From assembly GCA_903863195.1 (NCBI GenBank), contig CAIPAY010000133.1, forward strand, positions 1 to 64,000: a DNA stretch of 64,000 bases, in the 5' to 3' direction. This document shows positions 5,675 to 16,245 of this stretch, piece after piece. The DNA is from an uncultured Holophagaceae bacterium. Lineage in GTDB: Bacteria > Acidobacteriota > Holophagae > Holophagales > Holophagaceae. Below the pieces are notes generated by a model, which saw only the letters and a list, made by a program, of their open reading frames with translations, was not told the DNA's origin and ran no database searches. Every line of letters starts with the position of its first letter. Within the stretch, counting starts at the first letter, position 1. Position numbers and translations under genes: made by a program.

Positions 5675-6841
5675 TCACTCCATCCGGTCGAGGATCACCA
5701 GGGTCACGTCGTCCACGAAGGGCACGGGGCTGTTGAAGGCCCGGGTCTGGGCGATCACCATGTCCGCGGATTCCTCGGCTCCGGCGGGCAGCTCTGCGCA
5801 GATTCGGCGCAGCCCGGCCTCCTCGAGCATGGAGCGGTCCTCCCGCTCCACCTCGACCAGGCCGTCCGTGTAGAGCACCAGCCGATCGCCGGGCAGGAAC
5901 TCGGACTCGTGCTCGCTGAAGGGCAGCTGCGGGTCCAGCCCCAGCATGAAGCCCTTGCCCCGCAGCACCTCAGACCGCTGGAGGCCCCCCCGGGAGCCCC
6001 CGACGATGCGGAACGGCGCGCAGTGGCCGGCCACCACGTAGCGCAGCCGGTTGGTGAGCGGGTCGAGCCGGCCCAGCCAGGCGGTGGCGAACTGCTCGGC
6101 CAGGGTGGAGCGGCAGAGGTCCTCGTTCATGCCCTCGGCCCAGTCCAGGGGACCGCCGCCCAGGCGCACCTGGTTCTCGAAGGAGGTCTTCACCATGGCG
6201 GAGATCAAAGCCGCGGTGACGCCGTGGCCGCTCACGTCGGCGATCATCATGCCGGTACAGCCCCGGGGTAGCTGCACGACGGCGTAGATGTCGCCGCCGA
6301 TGCCCGCCGCCGGCAGGTAGCGGTGCGTATAGCGCGCACCCATAACCTCGCCCGGGAGCTTGGGCAGCAGTCCCATCTGGAGGGCGGCGGCCAGCTCCAT
6401 CTCCTCCTGTACCCGCTGCTGGAAGGAGGTCAGCTCCTTGTTCTGGCGCTTGATCTCCTTCTGCATCTCGATGAGGCGGAAGGTGGAGTCCACCTTCGCC
6501 AGCACCTCTTGCGCGTGGAAGGGCTTGGGGATCATGTCGTCTGCGCCCAGGGCTAGGCCGCCGATGCGCGAGGCGGTGCCGTCCAGGGCCGAGAGGATGA
6601 TGAAGTAGATGTCGCGGGTGGCCGGATCCGACTTGACGCGCTTGCAGAGCTCGTCACCCGGCATCTCGGGCATGCGCAGGTCGGAGATGATGAGATCAGG
6701 CCGTGAGCGGTCCATCTCGGCCAGGGCCTCCAAGCCGTTGGCTGCAGTCAGGACCTGGTAGCCCGCCCGCTTGAGATAGAAGCTGAGTATGTCCCGGATG
6801 GGGGCTTCGTCATCCACCACCAGGACCAGGCCCTTGGCCAT
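5675..6841 (-). CDS. Response regulator with PP2C-type (SpoIIE/RsbU) phosphatase domain
   Basis: 388 residues. Residues 1-120 are a receiver domain with Asp54 (IISDLRMP) as likely phosphoacceptor and the IPKPF lysine. A short coiled linker (about 130-165, KEIKRQNKELTSFQQRVQEE) leads to a PPM/PP2C serine phosphatase domain with metal-ligand motifs GGDIYA, MMIADVSGHG, LVLYTDGLVE and VDDVTLVIL. Such proteins dephosphorylate STAS anti-anti-sigma factors, and the STAS gene lies immediately upstream. So a two-component signal would reset a partner switch. The cognate kinase is not adjacent. No RsbW-type anti-sigma kinase is visible in the window. Confidence 0.93.
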   Translation of the reverse strand: MAKGLVLVVDDEAPIRDILSFYLKRAGYQVLTAANGLEALAEMDRSRPDLIISDLRMPEMPGDELCKRVKSDPATRDIYFIILSALDGTASRIGGLALGADDMIPKPFHAQEVLAKVDSTFRLIEMQKEIKRQNKELTSFQQRVQEEMELAAALQMGLLPKLPGEVMGARYTHRYLPAAGIGGDIYAVVQLPRGCTGMMIADVSGHGVTAALISAMVKTSFENQVRLGGGPLDWAEGMNEDLCRSTLAEQFATAWLGRLDPLTNRLRYVVAGHCAPFRIVGGSRGGLQRSEVLRGKGFMLGLDPQLPFSEHESEFLPGDRLVLYTDGLVEVEREDRSMLEEAGLRRICAELPAGAEESADMVIAQTRAFNSPVPFVDDVTLVILDRME

Positions 6842-6854
6842 GGTGAGGGGCCGC

Positions 6855-7193
6855 TCAGGAGCCGCGGAGGGCGTCCTGCTCCGTGGCGAAGATGGAGAAG
6901 TAGTTGGTGAGGTTGGTCTGGTCGAAGGTCTTCTTCACCGTCGCGGGCAGACAGCAGAGGTGCAGCTTGCCCCCGGACTTGTCCACGCTGTTGCGCGCGG
7001 CGACCAGCAGGCCGAGACCCGAGGAGTCGATGAAGCTGACCCCCTCCAGGTTGATCGTCAGGAGCTTGGGCTGCACCGTGGCCACGGTTTCGCGGATCAC
7101 GTCCCGGAGCTGCGCAGTCACCTCGAAATTGACCTTGCCCTGGATGGACACGACCGACGCGTTGCCTTCTTGGCGCGTCTGGATGTTCAACAT
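6855..7193 (-). CDS. STAS domain anti-sigma factor antagonist
   Basis: 112 residues, a single STAS domain of SpoIIAA/RsbV type. The regulatory serine region is SFIDSSGLGLLVAARN (Ser57 is the expected phosphorylation site by alignment to SpoIIAA). These proteins bind and sequester a serine kinase/anti-sigma factor when unphosphorylated. Its start overlaps the stop of the upstream RelA/SpoT-like gene by 7 bp, and the phosphatase gene follows 13 bp downstream, so the three are almost certainly one operon. The partner kinase and the output are not visible here. Confidence 0.93.
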   Translation of the reverse strand: MLNIQTRQEGNASVVSIQGKVNFEVTAQLRDVIRETVATVQPKLLTINLEGVSFIDSSGLGLLVAARNSVDKSGGKLHLCCLPATVKKTFDQTNLTNYFSIFATEQDALRGS

Positions 7194-8356
7194 GGATCCT
7201 CCTGAAGAATTCCCTTTAGCACTCGTCGCCGGGCGGCATCCCGCTGGCGCTGTTTGTATTCGATGTGTGATGCCGGACCTGAGAGTGAACTTTGGAATCC
7301 TGATTGTTCCATCACTTGGACTTCATGTGCGAAGAAGAAAGTAAATTCCTCCTGATCCTGGATCAAGTCCGGGATGCCAGCAAGGTCGGATAATTCCGTG
7401 TCGCCCATGGTCTGGAGCCGCTCCTGGAGGATCTCCAGAGCTCGCGTGGCGGGGCTGGGCAGGCGCACCAGGGTCCGGGCGGTGAACTGGATCGCCGCGT
7501 AATCCTTGCTGGAAAATGGGTTCTTCTCCTTGCCCTGGGCCTTCCGGGACAGGGAGTGGCTGAGGGCGCTCCGCTCGGCGGGGTCCATATCCTGAAGACA
7601 GAAGGCTGGCGGCAGCTCCTCCATCCAGGCCTGGAGGGCCTCCATGTCGATCATGAGGTTCCGGCTCCGGCTGGGCTTGATGTGGGTGGGCATGAGCACG
7701 TGGTGGTCCAGCAGAAATCGGATGACCATGAGCACGCCCAGATGGTCTTCGGCCACCAGCCGGATGCCGATCTGGTCATAGATGGTCTCTGCCACGTTCT
7801 CGGGCTTGTGAAGCATCTTGAGCAGCATGGACACCCGGTCCTTGTTCTCCTTGCGCTCCACCGCCAGCAGGGGCACTTCGTAGGCGCCCCGCAGGCACCA
7901 GCGGCCCTCCTCGCAGACCAGGAACTGGTCGTAGCGGCTGAAGACCTGGTGTTGGATCTCCGGCAGGTAGCGCAGGTTCACGTTGTGATCCACGTGGAAG
8001 AGGGTATGCATGAGCCGGAGGATGGCGCAGGACCAGCGCGCCCGGAGGTCCTGGGGACGCTCCGAGGCCCAGACCAGCAAGTCCAGCGGATCCTGGAGAT
8101 CCCGTACGTCCAGGGGCACATGGAGCTCGGTCCCGTCCAGGATCACGCCCTCCAGGAAGTCCACCGCATCCTCATAGACCCGCAGCACGGCGGCCCTCTG
8201 GACCGGCACGGCCATGTCATAGCCGTAGTTCAGTGCAAAGGACCAGGCCTCGTCCGGCGACTGGATGCGGAGCCCATCCAGATCGATGGGCGAGCCTCCC
8301 CCGAGGATCAGCTGAGTGACCTCCAGGGGCATGGGGAACAGCGCGAGGTTTTTCAT
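7187..8356 (-). CDS. Uncharacterised protein with RelA/SpoT-like nucleotidyltransferase core
   Basis: The product is about 389 residues; numbering below follows the 402-residue ORF. I think it belongs to an uncharacterised family found in Holophagae and myxobacteria (TIGR04552-like; from memory, not searched). The centre reads like a RelA/SpoT synthetase fold: a basic RKENKDRVSMLLK stretch (181-193), ETIYDQIGIRLVAED (203-217, with a possible metal Asp207), DYAAIQFT (298-305) and the strand HEVQV (357-361, Glu358), matching the order of K..S..K, D..aiR, gYqsih and iEIQiR in RelA proteins. No HD hydrolase motif is seen. ATG 8395 abuts the T-run of the atpE terminator, so ATG 8356 is preferred. 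Activity and substrate are unknown. Confidence 0.72.
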   Translation of the reverse strand: MKNLALFPMPLEVTQLILGGGSPIDLDGLRIQSPDEAWSFALNYGYDMAVPVQRAAVLRVYEDAVDFLEGVILDGTELHVPLDVRDLQDPLDLLVWASERPQDLRARWSCAILRLMHTLFHVDHNVNLRYLPEIQHQVFSRYDQFLVCEEGRWCLRGAYEVPLLAVERKENKDRVSMLLKMLHKPENVAETIYDQIGIRLVAEDHLGVLMVIRFLLDHHVLMPTHIKPSRSRNLMIDMEALQAWMEELPPAFCLQDMDPAERSALSHSLSRKAQGKEKNPFSSKDYAAIQFTARTLVRLPSPATRALEILQERLQTMGDTELSDLAGIPDLIQDQEEFTFFFAHEVQVMEQSGFQSSLSGPASHIEYKQRQRDAARRRVLKGILQEDPC

Positions 8357-8395
8357 GACTTCCAGATTCTCTATCGGGCCATTGCGGGAAAGCAT

Positions 8396-8429
8396 AAAAA
8401 AACGGGGCGCCCGGTCAGAGGGCGCCCCG
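8396..8429 (-). terminator. Intrinsic terminator after atpE
   Basis: A perfect 10-bp GC-rich stem (CGGGGCGCCC / GGGCGCCCCG) with a 7-nt loop is followed on the minus strand by seven T residues. It lies just after the atpE stop and closes the nuo/atp transcription run. It touches the longest possible start of the next gene. Confidence 0.93.
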
Positions 8430-8445
8430 CTGGAACCGGATCAGC

Positions 8446-8742
8446 CTACTTGATGGCGAAGGCGGCGACGAGCACGTAGATCACGAGGGCCTCGATGAGG
8501 GCCAGGCCGATGATCATGGTGGTGCGGATGTTACCGGCAGCCTGGGGGTTGCGGGCGACGCCTTCGCAGGCGGCCATCACAGCCTTGCCCTGGCCCAGAC
8601 CGCAGCCGGCGGCGGCGATGGCGAGCGAGAGGTGAGCGACGTACTGGCCTTCGAAGAGGCTCTTCTGCACGACGGGGGCGCCCTGGGCGAACGCAACGGC
8701 AGCCAGGGTGAAGAGGAAGGCGGTGGTGAGGAACTTCTTCAT
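8446..8742 (-). CDS. atpE: ATP synthase Fo subunit c
   Basis: 98 residues, longer than the usual 75-90 because of an N-terminal signal-like segment (KKFLTTAFLFTLAAVAFAQG) before the two-helix hairpin. Helix 1 has the glycine pattern AIAAAGCGLGQG, the loop is ARNPQ, and helix 2 carries the ion-binding Glu84 in LIEALVIY. The proteolipid forms the rotor ring of Fo in the inner membrane. Gln51 resembles the Na+ ligand of sodium-type c subunits, but the residue after Glu84 is Ala instead of Ser, which favours proton coupling. It ends the atpZ-atpI-atpB-atpE run and is followed by a strong terminator. Confidence 0.96.
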   Translation of the reverse strand: MKKFLTTAFLFTLAAVAFAQGAPVVQKSLFEGQYVAHLSLAIAAAGCGLGQGKAVMAACEGVARNPQAAGNIRTTMIIGLALIEALVIYVLVAAFAIK

Positions 8743-8904
8743 GGTGGTGCTCCTGTGAGGTTGTCCAGGGGGTTCGGAATCCCCAGAACGGTTAGAGAAA
8801 AGAAAGAATCGAGAGGAGGGCGAGGAGACCAGGCTCAGCCTGGGCGACGAGCGGGGGGTCCCGGGGGGGCCGTTGCGAGCGCAGCTCGCACCCCCCGGAC
8901 AGCG

Positions 8905-9636
8905 TTAATGCTCGTGTGAGACGGCGCCGCTCAGGTAGATGGTCGTGAGCATCGTGAACACGAAGGTCTGGATCAGGCCGAAGAAGAGGCCCAGGAACAT
9001 CATGGGCACCGGCAGCAGGATCGGCATCAGGCCGAAGAAGATGCCCGCCACCACGTGCTCACCGGCGATGTTGCCGAAGAGACGCAGAGAGTGGCTGAGG
9101 ATGCGGCTGAGCAGTCCCAGGATCTCCAGGGGGAACAGCAGCGGGGCCAGCCACCAGATGGGCCCCATGAAGTGCGCCCAGTACTTGAGGAAGCCCTGCT
9201 CCCGCATGCCGTGGAAGTTGTAGTAGCCGAAGACCACCAGCGCGGACCCGAGGGTGATGTTCCAGTTGCTGGTGCCCGGGCTCAGGGCCGGGATCAGGCC
9301 GAAGAAGTTGTTGAAGAACACGAACAGCGCCATGGTGCCGATGAACGGCAGGTAGCGCTCGCCATGGTGGGCGATGTTGTCGTTGATCATTTCCTTCAGG
9401 CCCTCGACGACGCCCTCGAAGATCTGCTGCAGGGGGCCGGGGATGCGGGCGAGGTTCTTGCGGACCAGGGCCGTGATGAGCATGGCCGTCAGGGCCGCCA
9501 GGGCCGCGTTCAGCAAGTGGTCATAGCGCTCCAGAACCGACAGGGGCGCTCCATGGGCGAAGCCGAGCCAGGCGTGCCGGGAGAGCCCCAGCACCTGGGT
9601 GAGCCATTGGGCGAGCAGCGATGCGTGATGTTCCAT
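8905..9636 (-). CDS. atpB: ATP synthase Fo subunit a
   Basis: 243 residues, five to six hydrophobic helices. The essential stator arginine lies in SHSLRLFGNIAGEH (Arg185). FFNNFFGLIPALSPGTSNWNITLG and the C-terminal FGLIQTFVFTMLTTIYL match the family. Subunit a forms the two half channels that feed protons to the c ring. It lies 13 bp after atpI. The 162 bases between it and atpE hold a GC-rich, poly-G/C stretch but no gene. The F1 genes and the b subunit are not in this window. Confidence 0.96.
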   Translation of the reverse strand: MEHHASLLAQWLTQVLGLSRHAWLGFAHGAPLSVLERYDHLLNAALAALTAMLITALVRKNLARIPGPLQQIFEGVVEGLKEMINDNIAHHGERYLPFIGTMALFVFFNNFFGLIPALSPGTSNWNITLGSALVVFGYYNFHGMREQGFLKYWAHFMGPIWWLAPLLFPLEILGLLSRILSHSLRLFGNIAGEHVVAGIFFGLMPILLPVPMMFLGLFFGLIQTFVFTMLTTIYLSGAVSHEH

Positions 9637-9648
9637 CTCGGTCAGACC

Positions 9649-10050
9649 TCAATCAGGCGGGGTGTCTTCAGGTTTCTCGAAGCCCAGACGCAGGGCCTCG
9701 AGGAGAATGCCGGCCACGAAGAGAAGGACCCCCAAGGCCAGCGGTAAGGCTTCCGCCGGGTATAGGGCTATCATCCCACGCAACACCAGTGCGATCAACG
9801 CCAGTTTGCCCAGGGACAGGAACCCGTAGACCCACCGGAGGCGGACCGAGGGGGTCAGCATCCGGCCAGTCAGCACCCGATGCAGCCCCCAGAAGCCGAA
9901 GCTGGTCAGGCAGCCCACTCCGAAGGCCAGAGCGGCGGTCCAGGAGCGGAACAGCCCCCACAGGAGCACCCCCAGGAGGCCCACCGCGAGCATGGCCTGG
10001 GTGATCCGCCGCAGATGGTGCTCACCCTCGTCCATGGGGGTCCTTGCCAT
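9649..10050 (-). CDS. atpI: ATP synthase subunit I-like protein
   Basis: 133 residues with four predicted membrane helices and a charged C-terminal tail. Size, topology and position directly before atpB fit the ATP synthase I chain, an accessory membrane protein implicated in c-ring assembly. Sequence is weakly conserved in this family, so the call rests mainly on hydropathy and gene order. Its start overlaps the upstream atpZ-like gene by 29 bp. Confidence 0.78.
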   Translation of the reverse strand: MARTPMDEGEHHLRRITQAMLAVGLLGVLLWGLFRSWTAALAFGVGCLTSFGFWGLHRVLTGRMLTPSVRLRWVYGFLSLGKLALIALVLRGMIALYPAEALPLALGVLLFVAGILLEALRLGFEKPEDTPPD

Positions 10051-10324
10051 CCGGCTGATTCGCCTCCAGCTTGCGCAGCTCCTCCGCGTCCCGCCGGGCC
10101 ATGCGCCGGTTCAGCTTGTAGAGCTCCCAGAAGGCGGCGCCGATGCCCCAGATGAGGCCCACCCACTGCCCCCGGGTGGCATTGCCGAACCACCCGCCGA
10201 TCCAGCGGCCCAGGAAGAAGCCCAGGGCGATGCAGAGTGGAAAGGAGATGCCCAGGGACATGAGGTCCCCCCAGAGCGCCCGCTCCCCGGGGTCGGCGTC
10301 TTCCTTGCCCGGCTTCAGGATCAC
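10022..10324 (-). CDS. AtpZ/AtpI-like ATP synthase accessory protein
   Basis: 100 residues, GTG start with GGGAG upstream. Two membrane helices (MSLGISFPLCIALGFFLGRWI and WVGLIWGIGAAFWELYKL) followed by a charged tail match the small F0F1-ATPase gene 1 family that heads many atp operons. It is probably an inner-membrane assembly or ion-handling partner of Fo. It is the first gene of the Fo run and lies after the hairpins that follow nuoN. Confidence 0.8.
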   Translation of the reverse strand: MILKPGKEDADPGERALWGDLMSLGISFPLCIALGFFLGRWIGGWFGNATRGQWVGLIWGIGAAFWELYKLNRRMARRDAEELRKLEANQPDGKDPHGRG

Positions 10325-10341
10325 CCGTCACTCCCATGAAA

Positions 10342-10375
10342 GACTTAAGGCGCGGGTGGCCCCGCGCCTTAAGTC
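10342..10375 (-). terminator. Perfect hairpin after nuoN
   Basis: A 15-bp perfect inverted repeat (GACTTAAGGCGCGGG / CCCGCGCCTTAAGTC) with a 4-nt loop lies between nuoN and the atpZ-like gene. A second repeat, CTAGGTCA / TGACCTAG at 10375-10404, overlaps the nuoN stop. There is no T-run, so it may attenuate or stabilise the 3' end and not fully terminate. Confidence 0.7.
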
Positions 10376-10400
10376 TAGGTCAGGAAACCCCGGATATGAC

Positions 10401-11864
10401 CTAGGCTAGGAAGATCTTGCCAGCCCAGTCGAGCAGCCAGGGGCCGAAGGCCGTGCCGACCAGGACCAGGACACAGGCCAGGGTCACGATGAACACCGAG
10501 ACGGCGCCCATGGGGATGGCCTCGCCTTCGGGCTCGCGGAAGTACATCTGGCTGACCACGCCCAGGTAGTAATAGGCGCTCACGGCACTGGTCAGCAGGG
10601 CGAGGACCGTCAGGGTGACGTAGCCCTGCTCGATGGCCAGCTTGAACAGGTAGAACTTCCCGAAGAAGCCCACCAGCGGGGGGATGCCCGCCAGGCTCAG
10701 GAGGAACACCATCATGGCGAAGGCCAGCACCGGGCGCTTGCGGCCCAGGCCCTTGAAGTCCTCAATGCGCTCACCCTCGCCCTGGCCCTGCAGGTAGATC
10801 ACCACGGCGAAGGCGCCCGTGTTCATGACGATGTAGATGGCCATGTAGAGCCAGACCGCCTGGGCGCCTGCCTGGGGATCGCCCGAGAGCACACCCAGCA
10901 GCATGTAGCCCACGTGGGCGATGCTGGAGTAGGCGAGCAGGCGCTTCATGCTCTGCTGGTTCACCGCCGCGATGTTGCCGAGGATCATGCTCGCTCCGGC
11001 AATGTAGCTGAGCGGCAGCACCCAGTCGCTGGACACCCCGTGGAAGCCCGTGCCGAAGACCCGCAGGATGGCGGCCAGACCGGCGGCCTTGGGAGCCGTG
11101 GCCATGAGGGTGGTGATGGGGGTCGGGGCGCCCTCGTAGGCGTCCGGCGACCACATGTGGAAGGGCACCGCAGCCACCTTGAAGCCCATGCCCACCAGCA
11201 CCATCAGGACCCCGGAGAAGACCAGCAGGCTGCTGGACTTGGGGGTGAGGGCCAGGGCCTGGTTCAGGTCCGCCAGGTTGGTGGTCGTGCCACCGGCCGC
11301 CCCGTAGAGCAGGCTGATGCCGTAGACGAGGATGCCGCTGGAGAAGGCTCCCAGCAGGAAGTACTTCATGCCGGCTTCCACGCTGGTGGCACGGTCCCGC
11401 AGGTAGGCCACCAGGATGTAGATGCAGATGGCCATCAGCTCGACGCTGAAGTAGATCGAGATCAGGTCCGAGGCGCCGCAGAGGAACAGCATGCCCGAGA
11501 GGGAGAACAGGATCAGGGCGTAGTACTCCACGGTCTGCTGCTTGAGGCTGTCCAGCAGCCGCACGCTCAGTGCCACCGCGCCGGCACAGCCGAGCACGCA
11601 GAGCATCTGGAAGCCCCGGGTGAGGCCGTCCATGCGGAACATGCGGGAGAAGCCCTCACCTTCCGTGGTCCGGGTCACCAGCACGGCCGTGATGGCGAGC
11701 ACCAGCAGGGTGATGGGCGCCCACTTGTGCTTCTCAGCCCGACTGAACATCAGGTCCCCGGGCCAGAGCATGAGCGTGGCCACGGTCATCAGGAAGAGTT
11801 GGGGCAGGATCAGATGCGTGTCCCGAAGGAGCGCATCCAAGAGCCCCTGAGAGAAGCCGGTCAT
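10401..11864 (-). CDS. nuoN: NADH-quinone oxidoreductase subunit N
   Basis: 487 residues, about 14 membrane helices, one of three antiporter-like proton-pumping subunits of complex I. Family motifs include MKYFLLGAFSSGILVYGISLLYG, PFHMWSPDAYEGAPTPITTLMA and KRLLAYSSIAHVGYMLLG. The start overlaps the nuoM stop by 4 bp (ATGA). It is the last gene of the nuo operon and is followed by two hairpins. Confidence 0.97.
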   Translation of the reverse strand: MTGFSQGLLDALLRDTHLILPQLFLMTVATLMLWPGDLMFSRAEKHKWAPITLLVLAITAVLVTRTTEGEGFSRMFRMDGLTRGFQMLCVLGCAGAVALSVRLLDSLKQQTVEYYALILFSLSGMLFLCGASDLISIYFSVELMAICIYILVAYLRDRATSVEAGMKYFLLGAFSSGILVYGISLLYGAAGGTTTNLADLNQALALTPKSSSLLVFSGVLMVLVGMGFKVAAVPFHMWSPDAYEGAPTPITTLMATAPKAAGLAAILRVFGTGFHGVSSDWVLPLSYIAGASMILGNIAAVNQQSMKRLLAYSSIAHVGYMLLGVLSGDPQAGAQAVWLYMAIYIVMNTGAFAVVIYLQGQGEGERIEDFKGLGRKRPVLAFAMMVFLLSLAGIPPLVGFFGKFYLFKLAIEQGYVTLTVLALLTSAVSAYYYLGVVSQMYFREPEGEAIPMGAVSVFIVTLACVLVLVGTAFGPWLLDWAGKIFLA

Positions 11865-13576
11865 TGGTGCCCCCCTCCGTGGGCTGGTGCGCCGTGGGCG
11901 GGCTCAGCGTGGGGCGCGGCATGGCCCTCGTGGCCGGCGGGAGCAGCCTCATGGCCAGCGGGGGCTGCGTTGTGGTGGGCGGCCGGAGCGGCCATGCCCT
12001 GCATGCCGATCTTGGCGGCGATGGCCTGCTTGACGGCCAGGTCCTGGGCGGCATGGAAGCCGGGGTTGACCTGCTCGACCAGCTTACGGACCGGGGCGTC
12101 CATGACGGCCATGATCGGTCCGGGATAGAGGCCGATCCAGAAGGCGGCGACGACCAGCGGGGCAAAGTAGAGGATCTCCCGCAGGTTGAGGTCTTCCATC
12201 TTCTCGTTCACCTCGGTGATGGGTCCAAACATGACGCGCTGGAACATCCAGAGCATGTAGGCGGCGCCGAGGATGATGCCGAGGGTGGCGACCACCGCGG
12301 CCCAGGGGAAGGCCTGGAAGGAGCCCATGAGGATGACGCCCTCACCGATGAAGCCGTTGAGCAGCGGCAGGCCGATGCTGCTCATGGTCATGATCATGAA
12401 GATGGTGGCGAAGATCGGCATGCTCTTCGAGAGCCCGCCGAAGTCCGCGATCATGCGGGTGTGCCGGCGCTCGTAGACGATACCCACCGCGAGGAAGAGC
12501 CCGCTGGTGCTGATGCCGTGATTGATCATCTGGAAGAGGCCGCCCTTGATGCCGTAGGGGTTCAGGGCGAACAGGCCGAGCATGCAGAGGCCGAGGTGAC
12601 TCACGGAGGAGTAGGCCACCAGCTTCTTCATGTCCTTCTGGATCATGGCCACAAGGGCGCCGTAGATGATGCCGATCAGGGACAGGCCGATGAACCAGGG
12701 CAGCAGCTCCTTGGTGGCGGTCGGCATGATGGGCAGCAGGAAGCGCACGAAGCCGTAGGTGCCCATCTTCAGGAGGATGGCGGCGAGGATGACGGAACCG
12801 GCCGTGGGTGCCTGCACGTGGGCGTCCGGCAGCCAGGTGTGGAAGGGGAACATCGGCACCTTGATGGCGAAGCCGACGAAGAAGGCCAGGGCCATGAGGG
12901 TCTGGTAGCTCTTGCTCTGCTGGGCGATGACGGGAGCCATGGCCTGGAAGCTGGCCAGGGAGAAGTCATAGACGCCCGTGGTCTGGTGCTGGAGGAAATA
13001 GATGGCGAGCAGCGCGACCAGCATCAGGACGGAACCGGCCAGGGTGTAGAGGAACAGCTTGATGGCGGCGTAGAGCTTCTGGGGGCCGCCCCAGATGGCG
13101 ATGAGGAAATACATCGGGACGAGCATGACTTCCCAGAACAGGTAGAAGAGGAACATGTCCTGGGTGATGAAGACGCCCAGCATGGCGGTCTGCAGCACCA
13201 GCATCCAGATGTAGTACTCCTTGTGGCGCTCGAGGATGGCGCTGAAGGAGCAGGCGATGGCAATGGGCCCGATGAAGGTCGTCAGCAGCCAGAGCAGGAG
13301 GCTGATGCCGTCCATGCCCACGCTGAACTTGACGCCCAGGGCGGGGATCCAGCTCCAGGCCCCGGCCCACTGGACCGCATCGCTGGCCCGGTCGTAGCCG
13401 AACCAGAAGGGCAGGCTCAGCAGGAGGCTGGCGATCATGATCAGGAGCGAGCCGATCTCGAAGACCCGGCGCTGGTCCTTGGGCACGAGGAGCAGGACCA
13501 ACGCGCCCAGGACGGGCAGGAAGGTCGCCACCAGCATCAGTGTCGTGTTTGCGGTGAACATGGGGACTCCAACCAA
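11861..13576 (-). CDS. nuoM: NADH-quinone oxidoreductase subunit M, His-rich tail
   Basis: 571 residues; typical NuoM is about 500. Antiporter-like subunit with the expected motifs FFVGFAIKVPMFPFHTWLPDAHVQAPTAGSVILA and KKLVAYSSVSHLGLCMLG. The extra length is a C-terminal tail of about 50 residues rich in His, Ala, Pro and Gly (AAHHNAAPAGHEAAPAGHEGH), with nine histidines in the last 45 residues. The tail follows the last helix. A metal-binding or pH-sensing role is possible but unproven. Confidence 0.96.
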   Translation of the reverse strand: MVGVPMFTANTTLMLVATFLPVLGALVLLLVPKDQRRVFEIGSLLIMIASLLLSLPFWFGYDRASDAVQWAGAWSWIPALGVKFSVGMDGISLLLWLLTTFIGPIAIACSFSAILERHKEYYIWMLVLQTAMLGVFITQDMFLFYLFWEVMLVPMYFLIAIWGGPQKLYAAIKLFLYTLAGSVLMLVALLAIYFLQHQTTGVYDFSLASFQAMAPVIAQQSKSYQTLMALAFFVGFAIKVPMFPFHTWLPDAHVQAPTAGSVILAAILLKMGTYGFVRFLLPIMPTATKELLPWFIGLSLIGIIYGALVAMIQKDMKKLVAYSSVSHLGLCMLGLFALNPYGIKGGLFQMINHGISTSGLFLAVGIVYERRHTRMIADFGGLSKSMPIFATIFMIMTMSSIGLPLLNGFIGEGVILMGSFQAFPWAAVVATLGIILGAAYMLWMFQRVMFGPITEVNEKMEDLNLREILYFAPLVVAAFWIGLYPGPIMAVMDAPVRKLVEQVNPGFHAAQDLAVKQAIAAKIGMQGMAAPAAHHNAAPAGHEAAPAGHEGHAAPHAEPAHGAPAHGGGHQ

Positions 13577-13582
13577 TGAGGA

Positions 13583-15943
13583 CTAGGCGATGAATTTCCA
13601 GAAGGCGAACACGAGGAAGCCGATGAACATCACGAAGGCGTAGTGCTGGACCCGGCCCGTCTGGAGGCCGCGGAAGACCGCGCTGGTCTCCTGCACCATG
13701 TATTCGACTAGGTCGACGCTGCCGTCGATGAGGTACTCGTCCACCCAGTGCATGAGCTCGGCCCAGATCAGGGTCACGCGGGCGGCCCCGTTCACCATGC
13801 CGTCCACCACCCAGGTGTCGAAGCTCCAGAGCTGGGCAGAGAAGCGCTTGAGGGGCTCGATGATCGCCGCGTCGTAGAACTCGTCCACGTAGTACTTGGC
13901 ATTCACCCAGCGGAACAGGTTCGGGAAGCGCTCCACGAAGGCGATGGCGCGGCTCCAGGTGGGATCCACCTTGTAGATCCACCAGGCCAGCAGCATGGCG
14001 CCAGGAGCCCAGATCAGGGTGGCCCAGGCCATGAGCCCGTATTCCATGGCGGGCGGGATGTGCTCGCCGTGGTGGGGGGCCGAGACCTGGTAGAGCAGCG
14101 GCTCGAGCCACTTGCTGAACAGTTCCGCCGGCACGATGGGCAGGACCCGGTGCAGGCTCTCGGGGTAGTTCAGGAAGCCGCCGACCACGGCCAGACCGGC
14201 CAGGACAGCCACCGGCAGCCACATGCGCCAGGAGACCTCATGGGGGTGGTGGCCCGGGACGATGTCATGGTCCTCAGGATCGTCCACATGGTGGTCGTGG
14301 GGCTTGTCCAGCTCGTGGATGTGGTTCTCATGGGCGTGCACAGGTGCATGGGCGTCGTGCCCGTGGTCGTCATGGGCGCCATGGTCGTCGTGGCCGTGGG
14401 CCTCGGACTGGACCGTGTGCCCGTAGGGATCCTCGCCGCCGCCGCGGTAGTTGCCATAGAAGGTCATGGCGATGAGGCGGGTCATGTAGAAGGCGGTGCA
14501 GAAGGCGCCGAGCATGCCCAGGATCCAGGCCACCAGGTTCAGGGTGGGTCCGGTGTAGTGGCCGTGCTGATACCAGCCCTCGAACACCTTCCAGAGGATC
14601 TCGTCCTTCGAGAAGAAGCCGGAGAAGGGGAAGATGCCGGCGATGGCGAAGGTGGCCAGGATCATGCTCATGGCCGTGATGGGCATGAGCTTCTTGAGGC
14701 CGCCCATGTTGCGCATGTCCTGCTCGTGGTGGCAGGCCGCGATCACTGCGCCGGACCCGAGGAAGAGGCTGGCCTTGAAGAAGGCGTGCGTGAAGACGTG
14801 GAACATGCCGGCGCTGAAGGCCCCGGCGCCCATGCCCATGAACATGAAGCCCAGCTGGGACACGGTGGAGTAGGCCAACACCTTCTTGATGTCGTATTGG
14901 GCGAGGCCCATGGTGGCGGCGATGAAGGCGGTGAGGGACCCGAAGGCCAGCACCACGGCCAGGGCCAACGGGGCGTTCACGTAGATGAAGTTCAGGCGGG
15001 TGATCATGTAGAGGCCGCTGGTCACCATGGTCGCGGCATGGATCAAGGCGGACACGGGCGTCGGACCGGCCATGGCATCGGGCAGCCAGACATACAGGGG
15101 GATCTGCGCCGACTTGCCCATGGCGCCCACGAAGAGGCAGCAGCCGATGAGGTTGAACCACCAGGTGGGGGAGGCGGTGTGCCCGTAGAGGGTGATGAGC
15201 GGCAGGCTGGCGACCTCGCGGACCGAGCCCATCAGGGTGTCATAGTCGAGGCTGCCGAAGACCTGGAAGATAAGGAAGAACCCGATCATGAAGCCGAAGT
15301 CGCCGATGCGGTTGGTGACGAAAGCCTTCTTGCCTGCGGCGGCAGCGAACTCCTTCTCGAAGTAGAAGCCGATGAGCAGGTAGGAGCAGAGGCCCACCCC
15401 CTCCCAGCCCAGGAACATCATCATGATGTTGGCGCCCAGCACCAGGTTCAGCATGCTGAACACGAACAGGTTCAGGTAGGCCATGAAGCGGTAGTAGCGT
15501 CCGTCGTTGCGTTCCTCAGCCATGTAGCCGGTGCTGAAGAGGTGGATGAGGAAGCCTGCGCCTGAGACCAGGAGGGCCATGCAGCCGCTCAGGACGTCGA
15601 ACTTGTAGGCCCACTCGATCTTGTAGGTGCTCATCCCGCCCAGCACATGGGCGCCGCCCACGTTGAACCAGGTCCAGAGGCTCTGGTGCAGGGACCGGCC
15701 CCCTGGAGGCATCCCGATCAACTGGATGAAGTGCCAGAGGGTGAGGACGAAGGCGAGGCCCACGCTGCCGAGGGCGAAGAAGTCCACCACCGCTGTGTTC
15801 CGCAGCTTGCGGCCGCTGAGGCCGTTGATGAGGAATCCGAAGAAGGGCAGGAAGGGGATCAGCCAGAGCAGGCTGCTCGGCTGGGAGGCGGCGGTCGCCG
15901 CGGCGTGCGCCAGGGTCATGTCGGCACTCATGATCGTCGTCAT
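13583..15943 (-). CDS. nuoL: NADH-quinone oxidoreductase subunit L, His-rich loop
   Basis: 786 residues, longer than the usual 610-660. The start is ATG 15943, which overlaps the nuoK stop (ATGA); the track's longer ORF runs into nuoK in another frame. Motifs KSAQIPLYVWLPDAMAGPTPVSALIHAATMV and KKVLAYSTVSQLGFMFMG identify this antiporter-like subunit. Between helices at about residues 495-570 is a loop extremely rich in His and Asp (HGHDDHGAHDDHGHDAH) with 19 histidines in about 62 residues. The C-terminal lateral helix and last helix are present. Confidence 0.96.
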   Translation of the reverse strand: MTTIMSADMTLAHAAATAASQPSSLLWLIPFLPFFGFLINGLSGRKLRNTAVVDFFALGSVGLAFVLTLWHFIQLIGMPPGGRSLHQSLWTWFNVGGAHVLGGMSTYKIEWAYKFDVLSGCMALLVSGAGFLIHLFSTGYMAEERNDGRYYRFMAYLNLFVFSMLNLVLGANIMMMFLGWEGVGLCSYLLIGFYFEKEFAAAAGKKAFVTNRIGDFGFMIGFFLIFQVFGSLDYDTLMGSVREVASLPLITLYGHTASPTWWFNLIGCCLFVGAMGKSAQIPLYVWLPDAMAGPTPVSALIHAATMVTSGLYMITRLNFIYVNAPLALAVVLAFGSLTAFIAATMGLAQYDIKKVLAYSTVSQLGFMFMGMGAGAFSAGMFHVFTHAFFKASLFLGSGAVIAACHHEQDMRNMGGLKKLMPITAMSMILATFAIAGIFPFSGFFSKDEILWKVFEGWYQHGHYTGPTLNLVAWILGMLGAFCTAFYMTRLIAMTFYGNYRGGGEDPYGHTVQSEAHGHDDHGAHDDHGHDAHAPVHAHENHIHELDKPHDHHVDDPEDHDIVPGHHPHEVSWRMWLPVAVLAGLAVVGGFLNYPESLHRVLPIVPAELFSKWLEPLLYQVSAPHHGEHIPPAMEYGLMAWATLIWAPGAMLLAWWIYKVDPTWSRAIAFVERFPNLFRWVNAKYYVDEFYDAAIIEPLKRFSAQLWSFDTWVVDGMVNGAARVTLIWAELMHWVDEYLIDGSVDLVEYMVQETSAVFRGLQTGRVQHYAFVMFIGFLVFAFWKFIA

Positions 15944-16245
15944 CCCTTCAGCAGGTTGATGTCGTCCACCTGGACGGTGTCGCGCTTGCGGTAGAGGGCC
16001 ACCACCAGTGCGAGGCCCACGGCCACCTCGGCCGCGGCGAAGCCCATGACCAGCAGGGCGAAGGCCTGGCCGGAGACGGACCCGCTGTGGCGGGCGAAGG
16101 CGATGAAGTTCAGGTTGGCGGCGTTGAGCATGAGCTCCACGCACATGAGGATCACCAGGGCGTTGCGGCGAATGAGCACGCCGACAATGCCGATGGAGAA
16201 CAGCGCGAAGGAGATGAGGAGGACCGCGTTGAGGTTGACCATCAC
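15940..16245 (-). CDS. nuoK: NADH-quinone oxidoreductase subunit K
   Basis: 101 residues, three helices. The family motif IGIVGVLIRRNALVILMCVELMLNAANL contains the conserved membrane Glu. It matches MrpC/NuoK proteins in length and topology. Its start overlaps the nuoJ stop by 4 bp and its stop overlaps the nuoL start. Confidence 0.97.
   Translation of the reverse strand: MMVNLNAVLLISFALFSIGIVGVLIRRNALVILMCVELMLNAANLNFIAFARHSGSVSGQAFALLVMGFAAAEVAVGLALVVALYRKRDTVQVDDINLLKG

Follow-up and report, generated by a model that had tools for sequence, protein, structure and literature searches.

A three-gene set of Holophagaceae encodes a divergent relative of the RelA/SpoT synthetases, followed directly by a STAS protein and a receiver-PP2C phosphatase. 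The homology of the first protein to RelA/SpoT synthetases is well supported by profile comparisons. The explanation that we favor overall, and would credit about as readily as doubt, is that this protein is a divergent RelA/SpoT-type pyrophosphotransferase that is bound by the STAS protein and, in Holophagaceae, set by the PP2C phosphatase. Somewhat more tentatively, the family may form a distinct RelA/SpoT branch that is set by direct STAS binding, in which the receiver-PP2C switch would control an alarmone that is possibly not ppGpp.

Organization of the locus

The window (the whole stretch of 64,000 nucleotides that was analyzed, from contig CAIPAY010000133.1 of an uncultured Holophagaceae bacterium) carries the three genes on its minus strand in the order RelA/SpoT-like ORF, STAS gene, receiver-PP2C gene.

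7187..8356, minus strand: RelA/SpoT-like gene (TIGR04562/TIGR04552), 389 amino acids from Met14, 402 amino acids if the start is at 8395
6855..7193, minus strand: STAS gene, 112 amino acids, phospho-serine motif FIDSSGLGL
5675..6841, minus strand: gene for a receiver plus SpoIIE-type PP2C phosphatase, 388 amino acids, metal-site motifs retained

The ORFs of the RelA/SpoT-like protein and the STAS protein overlap by 7 bp (7187–7193). When read as a 402-residue ORF (7187–8395, minus strand), the RelA/SpoT-like protein contains the run R181-K182-E-N-K185-D-R187-V-S189-M-L-L-K193 as well as the motifs IYDQIGIRLV with D207, DYAAIQFT (residues 298–305), and HEVQV with E358. The STAS protein matches TIGR00377 with 86 bits, and the phosphatase matches PF07228 with 138.6 bits. 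A preliminary description of this DNA had given the same ORF coordinates, motifs, 7-bp overlap, and succeeding receiver-PP2C gene, all of which were recovered when the ORFs were read again. It had also seen no anti-sigma kinase. Indeed, family and Pfam profile matches identify none (HATPase_c_2) among the three operon genes; candidate anti-sigma kinases are encoded elsewhere in the genome, and one occupies the corresponding slot in a related family (see below).

The minus strand of the window carries, at 8446–16245, ORFs that look like Nuo subunits N, M, and others, followed immediately by the ATP synthase F0 genes atpE and atpB and two small atpI-like genes. Only the ATP synthase genes were confirmed by Pfam.

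The true start of the RelA/SpoT-like gene is probably Met14 (8356), yielding a protein of 389 residues (a length also given in the preliminary description), because the ATG at 8395 lies immediately behind the T-tract of a terminator, a Shine-Dalgarno-like GGAAG is found just before the ATG at 8356, and the intergenic regions of most relatives align there. Two features precede this start.

8401..8431, minus strand: strong intrinsic terminator with a 12-bp stem, between atpE and the RelA/SpoT-like gene
8372..8377, minus strand: conserved CCGATA upstream of the start, a possible promoter element

Of 47 related loci, 45 have a terminator-like hairpin at the equivalent position. Most of them (about 40) also have a CCGATA-like element, downstream of the atpE terminator and ∼20 nucleotides ahead of the start codon. 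This putative promoter element resembles the −10 part of sigma-28 promoters; a scan for sigma-70-type promoters upstream of the RelA/SpoT-like gene gave no site. Given the terminator after atpE and the conserved CCGATA, the three-gene set is probably transcribed from its own promoter and not by read-through from atpE.

Family membership and distribution

The RelA/SpoT-like protein is a full-length member of the NCBIfam families TIGR04562 (407 bits, cutoff 140 bits) and TIGR04552 (387 bits, cutoff 125 bits). NCBIfam gives no function for either (entry name “TIGR04552 family protein”), in line with the earlier description of the family as uncharacterized. Open-licence full-text literature does not mention TIGR04562 and mentions TIGR04552 a single time, where it is an indel of Bdellovibrio sp. 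NC01 (PMC9888234). The same literature yielded no paper that calls the family RelA/SpoT-like, none on its function, and none that links a RelA/SpoT homologue to a STAS protein.

The sampling comprised Acidobacteriota genomes and one stray contig (MW495066). Among the Acidobacteriota genomes sampled, proteins above the family cutoff occur only in the Holophagaceae (f1) and in a class-mate family, f3; sampled genomes of a second class-mate family, f2, and of the Holophagaceae genera g2 and g5 gave no family match. The gene is single-copy in the window genome and is found once per genome in nearly all others. No relative was detected in the viral contigs or plasmids scanned. The stray contig is a phage-collection entry labeled “Microcystis phage” (Microcystis phage MaAM05, GenBank MW495066.1, 113528–134622; locus L175), in which a TIGR04552-family gene lies amid bacterial genes (glyS, secF, secDF, gatD, acpS, and engB). 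Because of these neighbors, we treated it as a mislabeled bacterial contig and rejected it as a phage relative.

Homology to RelA/SpoT synthetases

The protein can be divided into an N-terminal region and a synthetase domain that is interrupted by two insertions.

7901..8326, minus strand: N-terminal helical region, residues ∼24–165, family-conserved, no Pfam match
7211..7888, minus strand: RelA/SpoT-type synthetase domain, residues ∼170–395, from profile comparison
7535..7651, minus strand: family insertion 1 relative to Rel, residues 249–287, from profile alignment
7349..7447, minus strand: family insertion 2 relative to Rel, residues 317–349, from profile alignment

Against PF04607 alone, the window protein scores 15.3 bits (E = 0.025), which is below the Pfam gathering score of 27 bits. 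Divergent relatives also score below 27 bits (P0004, 24.0 bits; the protein of locus L105, 20.2 bits). P0004, which is ∼31% identical to the window protein, nevertheless covers positions 3–111 of the 113 positions of PF04607 (E = 5e-5) and contains the motifs YRSLHIT and DLVGVRLV. A PF04607 search of four whole genomes returned only canonical Rel, one small alarmone synthetase (SAS), and members of the TIGR04552/04562 family.

We compared a profile of 25 family relatives with 33 Rel/SAS synthetase domains from the same phylum, using 200 column shuffles as the control. The N-terminal half of the profile aligns with Rel/SAS at E = 5e-5, a value reached by 0/200 shuffles, and the alignment of the C-terminal half is reached by 3/200; each half aligns in the register expected from the motifs. 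When the two insertions are removed, the trimmed domain gives an alignment of 115 columns (Prob 91, E = 9e-7, score 47, 0/200 shuffles), compared with a shuffle maximum of 25.7 and scores of about 35 for block-order permutations. The untrimmed half-profile test is the stricter one, because the trimming was chosen after the motifs had been seen. All four lines of homology (genome search, half profiles, trimmed domain, and P0004) share sequences and are not fully independent. The RelA/SpoT synthetase homology put forward in the preliminary description is borne out by a family profile that beats the shuffles and by the match of P0004 to PF04607. On sequence grounds, we describe the window protein as a divergent RelA/SpoT relative and do not name it a (p)ppGpp synthetase, because it falls below the Pfam threshold and two of its nucleotide-site residues are changed.

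Pfam gives no match to an HD hydrolase domain in the window protein, which thus looks like a small alarmone synthetase that carries a new N-terminal region. Sequence and profile searches against PDB chains returned no RelA/SpoT match; weak matches to Cas9 and apolipophorin were taken as chance. AlphaFold2 models are of too low confidence to be used, with a pLDDT of 46 for the full protein (32 sequences) and of 39 for residues 130–402.

Predicted active-site residues

Four codons of the synthetase domain mark the putative active site.

7843-7841, minus strand: K185
7777-7775, minus strand: D207
7501-7499, minus strand: Y299
7324-7322, minus strand: E358

In 26 relatives, the residues that match Lys, Ser, Lys, Asp, and Glu of the Rel active site never vary, and their order and register are those of Rel. 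Residues invariant in these 26 sequences are K185, S189, K193, D207, G210, R212, R243, N246, E358, Q360, H377, Y380, and K381, and the conserved donor-site and catalytic positions hold down to about 30% identity. We take K185, S189, K193, D207, and E358 to be the equivalents of K243, S247, K251, D264, and E323 of RelSeq, R243-x-R245-N246 to represent its RxKD motif, and H377..Y380-K381 to represent its AHW.YK motif. The catalytic roles proposed earlier for D207 and E358 gain support from the invariance of both residues.

The tyrosine that stacks on guanine (Y299, presumably Y308 of RelSeq) is kept in 25/26 sequences. Two positions of the Rel nucleotide site are changed. The position of Rel Arg241 is mostly occupied by Glu (18/26), and the position of His312 by Gln in 25/26 (Q303 of the window protein, which we equate with H312 of RelSeq). 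Therefore, ppGpp cannot be assumed as the product, and the nucleotide specificity may differ from that of Rel.

Gene neighborhood across relatives

Each locus was counted once, giving 59 loci from Holophagaceae and five from f3, the proteins of which share 31–35% identity with the window protein. A STAS gene directly follows the RelA/SpoT-like gene in all 64 loci (59/59 and 5/5), with an identical 7-bp overlap in 54 Holophagaceae loci. The receiver-PP2C gene comes next in 59/59 Holophagaceae loci and in 0/5 f3 loci; atpE lies just upstream in 53/54 and 1/5, respectively. The STAS motif FIDSSGLGL and the metal-site motif GGDIY of the PP2C are both intact in 59/59 Holophagaceae loci, and the STAS serine is replaced in four of the five f3 partners. 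STAS is the slowest-evolving gene of the set. At two of the f3 loci (L103 and L105), the enzyme–STAS pair lies near DUF3014 and polynucleotide phosphorylase genes, not ATP synthase genes.

The three regions read from genus g2 and that of G326 retain atpE-STAS-PP2C without the RelA/SpoT-like gene, which indicates that STAS-PP2C has another role too. In f2, a canonical anti-sigma kinase (HATPase_c_2) occupies the slot just upstream of STAS-PP2C and overlaps the STAS gene (L203, 2044-4128; L204, 2205-4283); the STAS-PP2C pair of this family is 37–42% identical to that of the window. STAS is thus the common element, its partners being the enzyme alone, PP2C alone, PP2C plus the enzyme, or PP2C plus a kinase.

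The association with STAS and PP2C noted in the preliminary description therefore extends to the STAS gene at 64/64 loci and to the PP2C gene at 59/59 Holophagaceae loci, but not to PP2C in f3 (0/5). Among the relatives examined in the class, STAS is always adjacent to the RelA/SpoT-like gene, and STAS-PP2C also persists without it. Because the genomes are related, the 59 loci should not be counted as so many independent events; independent points come from the separate absences and from the two families in which the enzyme–STAS pair is kept.

A PF04607 search of the window genome found no ordinary small alarmone synthetase of the type that a congener encodes as an extra gene (G027:C1:309613-309972, locus L141; 234 amino acids).

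Proposed mechanism and alternative explanations

In the mechanism that we favor, ATP would be the enzyme's pyrophosphate donor and a nucleotide, or some other compound with a hydroxyl group, its acceptor; the product would resemble (p)ppGpp or be a variant of such a compound. The adjacent STAS protein would serve as its regulatory partner, the binding of which switches the enzyme on or off. In Holophagaceae, whether STAS binds the enzyme would depend on the phosphorylation of its serine: the receiver-PP2C would dephosphorylate STAS upon a signal that reaches its receiver from a sensor kinase encoded elsewhere, and a serine kinase, likewise encoded elsewhere, would add the phosphate. The genome encodes candidate kinases that may act at this step. 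In f3, which lacks an adjacent PP2C and has another residue in place of the phospho-serine in 4/5 STAS proteins, the pair may work by binding alone. We infer the enzyme activity, the acceptor, the binding of STAS, and the direction of control from sequence and gene order.

The homology, the invariant catalytic positions, the constant STAS neighbor (59/59 plus 5/5), and the STAS-binding type of kinase in the f2 slot all speak for this mechanism. Against it stand the Pfam score below the cutoff, the changes at the Arg241 and His312 positions, and the absence of the enzyme from g2 and G326. The persistence of STAS-PP2C in the latter two would also suit an active RelA/SpoT-like enzyme that is a neighbor through shared expression or history, with STAS/PP2C acting on a separate anti-sigma kinase and sigma factor; the kinase-STAS-PP2C arrangement of f2 and the other candidate kinases in the genome point the same way. 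We regard this as unlikely, albeit worth serious attention, because enzyme and STAS stay together without PP2C at 5/5 f3 loci, mostly in other surroundings, which a location beside atpE cannot explain. The protein might instead have kept the fold without synthetase activity and, as a sensor or scaffold that binds both nucleotides and STAS, inform the partner switch of the nucleotide status. The altered Arg241 and His312 positions, the two insertions, and the occupation of a slot used by a STAS-binding kinase are consistent with such a role, yet K185, K193, D207, and E358 do not vary among 26 sequences with identities as low as ∼30%, and we consider it distinctly improbable.

The slot shared with the f2 kinase, together with the overlap of both genes with STAS, could also mean that the protein acts in place of the module's anti-sigma kinase and modifies a macromolecule, either STAS (on its serine) or tRNA. 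However, the enzyme is still adjacent where four of five f3 STAS proteins are without the phospho-serine, and kinase candidates remain elsewhere in the genome, so that we give this reading little credence. A toxSAS-type toxin with STAS as its antitoxin would account for a small RelA/SpoT-like gene that overlaps a small partner gene. This is very hard to reconcile with the fixed chromosomal synteny beside atpE (53/54 loci), the presence of a single copy in almost every genome, an ordinary evolutionary rate, a window protein without PADLOC family match, and the lack of a plasmid relative.

Comparison with known systems

The enzyme–STAS pairing suggests an undescribed way of controlling a RelA/SpoT-like enzyme. 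If the favored mechanism holds, the family would constitute an unclassified branch of the RelA/SpoT superfamily, marked by insertions of its own and by altered residues in the nucleotide site. It would also exemplify a new control mode, the direct action of a partner switch on an alarmone-type synthase. Like PF04607 proteins and small alarmone synthetases, the window protein possesses the Lys, Ser, Lys, Asp, Tyr, and Glu residues in order and register and has no HD domain; it differs from them in its score below the cutoff, the changed Arg241 and His312 positions, the two insertions, and the extra N-terminal region. The NCBIfam entry name of TIGR04552/TIGR04562 carries neither the RelA/SpoT homology nor the STAS pairing.

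In Pseudomonas aeruginosa, the phosphorylated STAS protein HsbA binds the diguanylate cyclase HsbD (PMC5085249). The HsbR-HsbA-HsbD system likewise combines a receiver-phosphatase, a phospho-serine STAS protein, and a nucleotide-messenger synthase; in contrast to the set described here, its synthase is a diguanylate cyclase, HsbR is also a kinase, and binding is shown there and only inferred here (PMC5085249). SiaC, a small partner protein of the same species, activates SiaD by direct binding (PMC8457831). The likeness to SiaC-SiaD is that of a small partner with a nucleotide-messenger synthase, and SiaD is again a diguanylate cyclase (PMC8457831). Both systems demonstrate that small switch proteins can directly control nucleotide-messenger synthases, and the Holophagaceae set would be a RelA/SpoT counterpart of HsbA-HsbD. 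With anti-sigma kinase-STAS-PP2C modules, the set shares a STAS protein with DSSG and a SpoIIE-type phosphatase, and f2 possesses the kinase-STAS-receiver-PP2C arrangement itself; in Holophagaceae, by contrast, the operon is without a kinase, and the kinase slot is taken by the RelA/SpoT-like gene.
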